Below are positions 36,765 through 39,219 of a stretch of 47,855 nt of DNA, in pieces. Numbering within the stretch: the stretch's first letter is position 1; the number at the start of each line of letters is the position of its first letter. The stretch comes from an uncultured Pelagibacteraceae bacterium (GTDB lineage: Bacteria; Pseudomonadota; Alphaproteobacteria; Pelagibacterales; Pelagibacteraceae). The notes under the pieces were generated by a model that was given only the letters and a program-made list of their open reading frames with translations, ran no database searches and had not been told where the DNA came from. The stretch lies in assembly GCA_902600855.1 (NCBI GenBank), contig CACKKY010000005.1, positions 1-47,855 of the forward strand, written 5' to 3'. The position numbers and the translations under genes were made by a program.

Positions 36765-37484
36765 ATGACTAAAAGAGCGATAAATCAAAACGGCAAATTC
36801 ACCAAAGAGCTAATAAATACAATTGAGTCTAAATTTGTATATGCTGATAAACCAATAAATAGATTAAATTTTACCGAAAAAAAATATGACATCAATCATG
36901 AAGATAAAAAAAATTTACTTTTAAAATTAAAAAAACAATTAAATTCAATTGAAAATTGTAAATTAAAGGAAAGCTCAAAAAACATTGTTTTAGGCGAAGG
37001 TCATTTGAATAGTCCAATAATGTTGATTGGTGAAGCCCCAGGATTAGAAGAGGAAAAATCTGGTTTTCCATTTAAAGGAGAAGTTGGGGAACTTTTAAAT
37101 AAAATGCTTTTAGCTATAGATATTAAACGACAAAATATTTACACAAGTTATGCCATAAACTTTAGGCCTCCTGAAGATAGAAAACCTACATCAGTAGAAA
37201 TTAAAAGATACTCTATTTTCTTGAAAGAACATATATCAATAATAGATCCAAAAATTATAGTTTTGATGGGAAGCTCAGCAATGGAGGCTGTCACTGGTAT
37301 AAGCAAAAAAATTTCCTCTGAGAGAGGAAAATGGAAAGAAATTATATTGAAGAATAAAACTTATTCAATAATGATAACTTTTAACCCATCCTATTTATTG
37401 AGATTTCCAGAGAATAAAAAATATTCATGGGAAGATCTTAAAAAAATTAGAGATAAAGTAAAAGATCTCGATTTAAAAATTTAA
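36765..37484 (+). CDS. Uracil-DNA glycosylase superfamily protein (family-4-like, atypical)
   Basis: LIGEAPGLEEEKSGFPFKGEVGELLNKML motif 1 and NPSYLLRFPENKKYSWEDL motif 2 region; only one Cys in 239 aa. Confidence 0.8.
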   Translation: MTKRAINQNGKFTKELINTIESKFVYADKPINRLNFTEKKYDINHEDKKNLLLKLKKQLNSIENCKLKESSKNIVLGEGHLNSPIMLIGEAPGLEEEKSGFPFKGEVGELLNKMLLAIDIKRQNIYTSYAINFRPPEDRKPTSVEIKRYSIFLKEHISIIDPKIIVLMGSSAMEAVTGISKKISSERGKWKEIILKNKTYSIMITFNPSYLLRFPENKKYSWEDLKKIRDKVKDLDLKI

Positions 37485-38044
37485 TGAGAATAATAGCTGG
37501 TGTTGATGAGGTGGGTAGAGGTAGTTTAATTGGACCTGTTTATGCGGCAGCTGTGATTTTAAAAAAATCTGCTAATACAAGATTATTAAAAGACTCAAAA
37601 ACATTAAGTAAAAAAAAAAGAGAATATCTCTTTAATTACATAAAAAAAAATTCAATATGGTCATTAGGAAAAGCTTCTGTAAAAGAAATTGAAAGTATAA
37701 ATATATTGCAAGCAAGTTTATTAGCTATGAAAAGAGCTATTAAAAAATTGAAGAAGAAACCAACTCATATTCTAATAGATGGAAATAAAATTCCCGAATT
37801 AAAAAATTATAATTTAAAATCAGTTGTTCAGGGTGATAAAAAAGTTCCCTCTATTTCGGCAGCTTCTATAATTGCAAAAGTATCAAGAGATAAGTTTATA
37901 ACTGCTTTATCAAAAAAAAATAAAGGTTATAAATGGGATAAAAACTTTGGGTACGGAACAAAACAGCATTTAAAAGCGTTAAAAAAATTGGGTATTACAA
38001 AACATCATAGAAGAACTTTTTCACCAATTTCTAAAACAAATTAA
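37484..38044 (+). CDS. rnhB: Ribonuclease HII
   Basis: IAGVDEVGRGSLIGPVYAAAVIL; KDSKTLSKKKRE; AASIIAKVSRD. Confidence 0.97.
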   Translation: MRIIAGVDEVGRGSLIGPVYAAAVILKKSANTRLLKDSKTLSKKKREYLFNYIKKNSIWSLGKASVKEIESINILQASLLAMKRAIKKLKKKPTHILIDGNKIPELKNYNLKSVVQGDKKVPSISAASIIAKVSRDKFITALSKKNKGYKWDKNFGYGTKQHLKALKKLGITKHHRRTFSPISKTN

Positions 38045-38083
38045 TACTACATCTAGTTACTATATAATTTTAAAACACTAATT

Positions 38084-38132
38084 GAATCCAAATTTTTCAA
38101 TCTCAGGTTGACCATAGAATCCTTTTAGAGTC
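38084..38132. promoter_or_regulatory. Cluster of three GANTC sites upstream of ccrM
   Basis: GAATC at 38084-38088, GAATC at 38117-38121, GAGTC at 38128-38132, all in the 104-bp rnhB-ccrM intergenic region. Confidence 0.7.
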
Positions 38133-38148
38133 TAATTAATTTTTACAA

Positions 38149-39219
38149 ATGAAAACTGATTTCAAAAATAAAATAATTTACGGGGATAGTCTTGAAGAAT
38201 TAAAAAAAATTCCACGTGAAACTTTTGATTTAATTTTTGCTGATCCACCTTACAACTTACAATTAAAAAGTGAATTAACTAGACCAGATAGATCAAAAGT
38301 TAGCGCGGTTAATGATAAGTGGGACCAATTTGAAAATTTTAAAAAATATGATGATTTCACATATAAATGGCTTAGTGAATGTAAAAGAATTTTAAAAAAA
38401 GATGGAGCAATTTGGGTTATAGGCAGTTACCATAATATTTTTAGAGTTGGTACAGCAATACAAAATTTAGGATTCTGGATTTTAAACGATGTCATTTGGA
38501 ATAAAAATAATCCAATGCCAAACTTTAGAGGAACACGCTTTACTAACGCTCATGAAACTTTGATATGGGCGTCTAAAAGTGAAAAATCAAAATATACATT
38601 CAATTATCAATCTTTAAAATGTTTAAATGATGATTTGCAAATGAGATCTAATTGGAATCTTCCAATATGCAATGGTTCTGAAAGACTTAAAAAGGACGGA
38701 AAAAAAATTCACTCCACACAAAAACCAGAGGCACTTCTACACAGAATTTTACTAGCTACATCTAATAAAAATGACTTAATACTTGATCCTTTTTTAGGAT
38801 CAGGAACGACAGCTACAGTAGCAAAAAAACTAAGAAGAAATTATTTTGGAATAGAAAAAGAAAGAAATTATTTTAAGGTTGCTGAACAACGCTTAAAGAC
38901 TACAAAGCCTATAGAGGATGATTTGCTAGATACGCTTAAAAACAATAGATCAAAACCAAGAATCCCTTTTGGTTCATTAGTTGAGCTTGGCATGATTAAA
39001 CCTGGAACTAATATTTTTGATAATAAGAAAAAAATAACAGCCAGAATTATGGCAGATGGTAGTATAAAACATAATCAAGAAGAGGGCTCGATACACAAAG
39101 TTGCAGCCACTATTTTAGGAGCCGAAAGTTGTAATGGATGGACCTTTTGGCACTGTGATATCAATGGAAGAACTTATCCAATAGATTATCTAAGACAAAG
39201 ATTAATTTCTAAAAACTAA
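38149..39219 (+). CDS. ccrM: Adenine-specific DNA methyltransferase CcrM (GANTC)
   Basis: FADPPYNLQL; DPFLGSGTTATVAKKLRRNYFGIE; C-terminal RAMA-type domain GSIHKVAATILGAESCNGWTFWHCD. Confidence 0.95.
   Translation: MKTDFKNKIIYGDSLEELKKIPRETFDLIFADPPYNLQLKSELTRPDRSKVSAVNDKWDQFENFKKYDDFTYKWLSECKRILKKDGAIWVIGSYHNIFRVGTAIQNLGFWILNDVIWNKNNPMPNFRGTRFTNAHETLIWASKSEKSKYTFNYQSLKCLNDDLQMRSNWNLPICNGSERLKKDGKKIHSTQKPEALLHRILLATSNKNDLILDPFLGSGTTATVAKKLRRNYFGIEKERNYFKVAEQRLKTTKPIEDDLLDTLKNNRSKPRIPFGSLVELGMIKPGTNIFDNKKKITARIMADGSIKHNQEEGSIHKVAATILGAESCNGWTFWHCDINGRTYPIDYLRQRLISKN

Follow-up and report, generated by a model that had tools for sequence, protein, structure and literature searches.

How is ccrM, the gene for the GANTC adenine methyltransferase, controlled in lineages without CtrA, among them some of the ocean's most abundant cells? 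We found no stated answer in the open-access literature. The locus that raises this question lies in a window of 47,855 nucleotides (the window being the whole stretch of DNA that was analysed) on a contig of Pelagibacteraceae (SAR11), as the nearest matches to its ccrM, at ≤98% identity, were all Pelagibacteraceae or Pelagibacterales records. The earlier note on this DNA had pointed to three GANTC sites at 38084, 38117 and 38128, the last ending 16 bp 5' of the ccrM ATG, and these positions were correct. It had read the sites as an enriched cluster in the intergenic region upstream of ccrM and, pointing to the effect of GANTC methylation in the ccrM leader region of Caulobacter, had suggested that such a feedback may persist in this streamlined lineage.

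GANTC sites in the rnhB-ccrM gap

The gap between the end of rnhB (38044) and the ATG of ccrM (38149) was 104 bp and held all three GANTC sites; a terminator scan found no terminator-like site between the two genes. The features of the locus were as follows.

37484-38044, + strand: rnhB, ribonuclease HII, the upstream gene (from the ORF list, annotated by reading the sequence)
38084-38088, no strand: upstream GANTC (GAATC), 24 bp 5' of the -35; at the same exact offset in 97 of 121 distinct genus promoters
38096-38102, + strand: TTCAATC block directly 5' of the -35; 0-1 parsimony changes per column on the 121-sequence ccrM tree
38108-38113, + strand: -35-like hexamer TTGACC; TTGAC in 121 of 121 genus promoters (partly by construction, the regions having been anchored on TTGAC) and alignable class-wide
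38117-38121, no strand: GANTC site 1 (GAATC), in the -35/-10 spacer; 116 of 121 genus promoters
38128-38132, no strand: GANTC site 2 (GAGTC), sharing its 3'-terminal two bases with the 5' end of the -10; 120 of 121 genus promoters
38131-38136, + strand: -10-like hexamer TCTAAT, 17 nt 3' of the -35; departs from the canonical form by a C at position 2, in the conserved GAGTCTAAT block
38149-39219, + strand: ccrM, GANTC adenine methyltransferase of 356 aa with N6_N4_Mtase and RAMA domains; predicted 5' leader of ~5 nt

Two of the three sites fell within a promoter-like core, TTGACC-N3-GANTC-N6-GANTC-TAAT. Judging from its conservation, TTGACC-17 nt-TCTAAT probably represents a sigma70-type promoter that has a GANTC in its spacer and a second one at the edge of the -10. 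A start ~7 nt beyond the -10 would place the 5' end of the transcript ~5 nt ahead of the ATG. The sites would lie upstream of this start, and hence not in the transcribed leader. The presence of conserved GANTC sites upstream of ccrM stood, whereas the analogy with leader sites had to be revised, as two of the three lie in the predicted core promoter, one in its spacer and one at the edge of its -10. In Caulobacter, by comparison, the GANTC sites of ccrM lie in the transcribed leader, in contrast to the predicted core-promoter sites of SAR11 ccrM.

A strict sigma70 consensus scan had instead offered TTAATA-16-TATAAT at 38041-38068 as the ccrM promoter, a candidate that was rejected since its TATAAT was not conserved in relatives; the scan missed TTGACC-17-TCTAAT because of the C at position 2 of the -10. 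The TTCAATC block formed an imperfect inverted repeat with GGTTGA at the -35, and the combination of TTCAATC and -35 occurred once in the complete genome of a congener (G012), at ccrM. TTCAATC is a possible binding site of some other regulator.

GANTC frequencies were determined in the window and in the host genome, of whose 829-kb assembly (estimated completeness 57%) 628 kb was scanned. The window contained 85 GANTC compared to 132 ± 10 expected from dinucleotide shuffles, and the sampled genome 900 compared to ~1,730 in Markov sequence, i.e. about two-fold depletion, with densities of 1.42/kb in genes and 1.66/kb in intergenic regions. One site per 560-700 bp was therefore rarer than the one per few hundred bp assumed previously. 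The predicted enrichment upstream of ccrM was borne out, as this was the only one of 194 sampled intergenic regions with three GANTC and the others held no similar cluster. One further triple within 49 bp was present in the sampled genome, inside a coding region. At the observed densities, the probability of at least three GANTC in ~100 bp was ~5e-4 to 1e-3, and 2-9 triples of three sites within 49 bp would be expected per 628 kb of first-order Markov sequence of the same composition. Because random sequence of this composition yields a few triples per genome, the count by itself was insufficient; it is modest evidence, and placement together with conservation is strong evidence. Although those few expected triples would allow for a chance cluster, the actual sampled genome contained just two, one of them intergenic, and the sites were conserved far beyond the genus, which makes chance scarcely credible as an explanation.

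Conservation of the ccrM promoter layout

In a comparison of 121 distinct ccrM upstream regions from Pelagibacteraceae, the sites proved to be conserved in front of orthologous ccrM genes, most strongly at the -10 (120 regions) and in the spacer (116), followed by the upstream site (97). On the ccrM tree, columns of the -10 site showed 0-1 changes, compared to 16-31 in the spacer columns just 5' of site 1. In one subclade the spacer site was shifted 1 bp toward the -35 and its N was C, G or T rather than A, so that across promoters site 1 had A, C, G or T at N while GA and TC were held. Retention of GA/TC through a register shift, with N varying, is the pattern expected from selection on the recognition sequence rather than on particular promoter letters. 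At site 2, N was always G within the genus, and there the constraint on the -10 and the constraint on GANTC are consequently inseparable.

The pattern TTGACN4GANTCN6GANTC had 19 matches in the genomes of 101 relatives, at positions coinciding with ccrM upstream regions, and 0 control matches. The layout recurred in a second family of the order, where the two sites read GATTC and GAATC, and both were present in 16 of its 19 distinct regions. One complete 1.2-Mb relative (G183, genus g5 of the same family; locus L281) had both ccrM and GcrA and no GANTC in the ccrM promoter.

We also examined 69 ccrM upstream regions, nearly all of which came from other alphaproteobacterial families and many of which were GC-rich. 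Both sites were present in 33, one site in 19 and neither in 17; a stricter pattern was matched by 25 of the 69, compared to 0.01 in shuffles. Site 2 was at +19 relative to TTGAC in 34 of these promoters, and other families often had a GANTC 14-21 bp 5' of TTGAC. The N position was G in 12, C in 10, A in 8 and T in 3 at site 1, and C in 25, A in 5 and T in 3 at site 2. In 289 whole genomes of the class, TTGACN3GANTCN6GANTC gave 48 matches compared to 3 for a reversed control, and 25 of the 30 matches inspected were immediately upstream of ccrM; the fixed-spacing signature thus finds mostly ccrM in whole genomes. This distribution, which spans many families of the Alphaproteobacteria, suggests that the two-site layout predates SAR11. 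The architecture is common but dispensable, since G183 and 17 of the 69 class members lack it.

These data bear on two further explanations. The first is that this is an ordinary conserved sigma70 promoter in which GANTC is incidentally spelled by conserved spacer and -10 letters, as might be suggested by the invariant GAGTC of site 2 in the genus, which merges with the -10, and by the absence of the motif from part of the class. However, spacer letters are normally free, and yet GA/TC was held while N took all four letters across lineages, site 1 persisted despite the register shift, and both sites turned up again, at nearly constant phasing, in GC-rich genomes whose -10 letters differ, making incidental GANTC improbable. 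The second is that the cluster serves another methylation-related function (replication, mismatch repair or the binding of another protein) and is next to ccrM by coincidence. The practically invariant TTCAATC adjoining the -35 could bind another factor; against this, the sites had fixed phasing to TTGAC, were associated with ccrM across families and genomes, and made up the single intergenic triple of this kind in the part of the genome sampled, and we consider a coincidental placement very improbable.

A proposed autoregulatory loop and its possible readers

The encoded CcrM contained PF01555 and PF18755, scored 576 bits over its full length against NF050803 (below the model cut-off of 830 bits) and could be aligned with the CcrM structure 6pbd from residue 8 to residue 351 (E 3e-138). 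The reader of CcrM methylation in Caulobacter is GcrA acting together with sigma70 RNA polymerase (review: PMC7403470), and CtrA activates ccrM there (PMC3667746). The host genome encoded GcrA (PF07750; G000:C7:17677-18105), the DNA-binding and sigma-binding segments of which both aligned to the Caulobacter GcrA structures 7ye1, 5yiu and 5yix. PF07750 also scored above cut-off in the control genome of Sulfolobus acidocaldarius. CtrA was not found in the complete genome of the congener G012 (that of the host itself being incomplete), in which there were four Trans_reg_C proteins, one of them PhoB; none scored above 133 bits against the CtrA model, whose cut-off is 350. This is in line with the report that Pelagibacter has no ctrA (Brilli 2010, PMC2877005).

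The main reading of these results is that the ccrM promoter is methylation-sensitive and targeted by CcrM itself, to which we assign a probability of about 0.72 from sequence comparison; this figure covers those two properties and excludes both the direction of the effect and GcrA as the reader. CcrM would methylate its own promoter, ccrM output would depend on whether the promoter sites are fully methylated, hemimethylated or unmethylated, and each passing replication fork would reset that state, closing a direct autoregulatory loop. GcrA bound to sigma70 RNA polymerase would be the most likely reader of the methylation state.

Alternatively, RNA polymerase-sigma70 might read methylation itself, through altered recognition or melting of the spacer and -10, with the use of GcrA being secondary or lineage-specific. 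The overlap of site 2 with the -10 is consistent with this, as is the class-wide distribution of GcrA: in nine of the 69 class genomes (G124, G234, G238, G148, G164, G218, G216, G172 and G155) ccrM was present and GcrA was not detected with PF07750 or the Caulobacter GcrA segments, and 8 of these nine kept at least the spacer site in the ccrM promoter, 6 of them both sites. On the other hand, undetected GcrA is not the same as absent GcrA, and GcrA, a known methyl-dependent sigma70 partner (PMC7403470), was present in the host genome and its family. We consider reading by polymerase without GcrA to be rather unlikely. No association was found between GcrA presence and promoter sites across the class, and this co-occurrence does not support GcrA as the cause of site retention; either GcrA may be too diverged in those genomes or polymerase may read the marks itself. 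A further, doubtful extension is a minimal write-and-read loop, in which an old and widely shared alphaproteobacterial core promoter would have a double CcrM substrate as its -35/-10 interval, RNA polymerase would sense the methyl marks directly, CtrA would be unneeded, and GcrA would be unneeded in some lineages.

With regard to direction, our best guess, held at roughly even odds, is negative feedback, with ccrM output peaking in the hemimethylated state after replication and being damped at full methylation; damping would be favoured because it would give a stable level of a maintenance enzyme. A simpler scheme, in which methylation just activates the ccrM promoter, is a less favoured but serious alternative. 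In the congener G012, the distance from ccrM to the GC-skew minimum was ~192 kb, out of 672 kb for half the chromosome, so that the gene would replicate fairly early. GANTC is methylated in Pelagibacter, and the methylated fraction is lower near the origin in growing cells (PMC9516812).

The Caulobacter precedents point both ways on direction. The ctrA P1 promoter, with a GANTC at -29, is activated by hemimethylation after fork passage (PMC4287350; PMC3667746), and GcrA footprints -35 to -10 of this promoter on fully methylated DNA (PMC3667746), while the ftsZ promoter, with a GANTC between its -35 and -10, is most active when fully methylated (PMC3708114). Start sites with a spacer GANTC fall in one common time window of the Caulobacter cell cycle (PMC4287350). 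Like ftsZ, SAR11 ccrM has a spacer GANTC, whereas ftsZ is a different gene with one conserved site; ctrA P1 also has a single site, and ctrA was not found in the complete SAR11 relative. Reporters of mipZ, podJ, flaY and pleC are crippled by GANTC mutation (PMC3667746). These four resemble the present case in having GANTC in the promoter and CcrM and GcrA encoded in the genome, but differ in that here the gene under control would be that of the methyltransferase, and its promoter has two phased sites and a third upstream. For the Agrobacterium gcrA promoter, which has six GANTC sites, repression by full methylation has been proposed (PMC11514494), a parallel in that this is the GANTC-rich promoter of a GcrA/CcrM module gene with proposed replication-coupled derepression. 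It belongs to the other member of the pair, in contrast to SAR11, where gcrA upstream regions across the order had no consistent GANTC and mostly none.

Promoters controlled by methylation in the GcrA/CcrM manner are thus already known, and an effect on ccrM is suspected in Caulobacter, where, in a passage of Gonzalez 2014 (PMC3973325) that cites earlier work, methylation state 'most probably' affects its transcription. A Caulobacter-like feedback gained support from the conservation and uniqueness of the SAR11 layout, although it would act at core-promoter rather than leader sites and through an arrangement that probably predates SAR11. With its occurrence in many alphaproteobacterial families, the layout is not a remnant of a Caulobacter logic kept by SAR11. 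CtrA, the activator of Caulobacter ccrM, was not found in G012. We found no description in the open-access literature of a conserved core of phased GANTC sites in ccrM promoters, and its novelty is provisional. From the numbers of GANTC in front of cell-cycle genes, Brilli 2010 (PMC2877005) came to the conclusion that such counts do not allow control to be deduced; phasing to the promoter, unlike counts, makes the GANTC signal visible. A core promoter composed of CcrM target sequences and conserved in many Alphaproteobacteria leads to a specific model of autoregulation.

GANTC motifs at other genes

No other gene with a two-site promoter of the ccrM type was found in the sampled part of the host genome or in the complete G012 genome; this search returned a peroxiredoxin-like gene with one site of such a promoter. 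When the spacing was relaxed in 50 genomes of the class, 53 matches were obtained compared to 8 in controls. Of these, 20 preceded ccrM and another 20 preceded genes for small FtsB-like proteins; the nine such proteins tested all matched the DivIC family (PF04977). FtsB/DivIC and ccrM together made up about 40 of the 53 matches. TTGAC-N4/5-GANTC-N6/7-GATTC recurred just upstream of FtsB/DivIC genes in other alphaproteobacterial families (loci L350-L352, L354-L361, L363-L369, L371 and L374), and ftsB of the SAR11 genome G012 lacked this motif. No report of ftsB/divIC as a GcrA/CcrM target was found in the open-access literature.

Two other intergenic regions of G012 contained three GANTC, one beside a UmuD/LexA-like gene (G012:C1:220055-220226), with sites 12 and 11 bp apart, and one upstream of clpX (G012:C1:487167-487255). 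An intergenic region adjoining a ubiA-like gene had the identical 21-bp GATTCATAATCAAACTGATTC in the host genome (G000, C10:14434-14485) and in G012 (C1:108096-108147), a second conserved GANTC pair common to both species.
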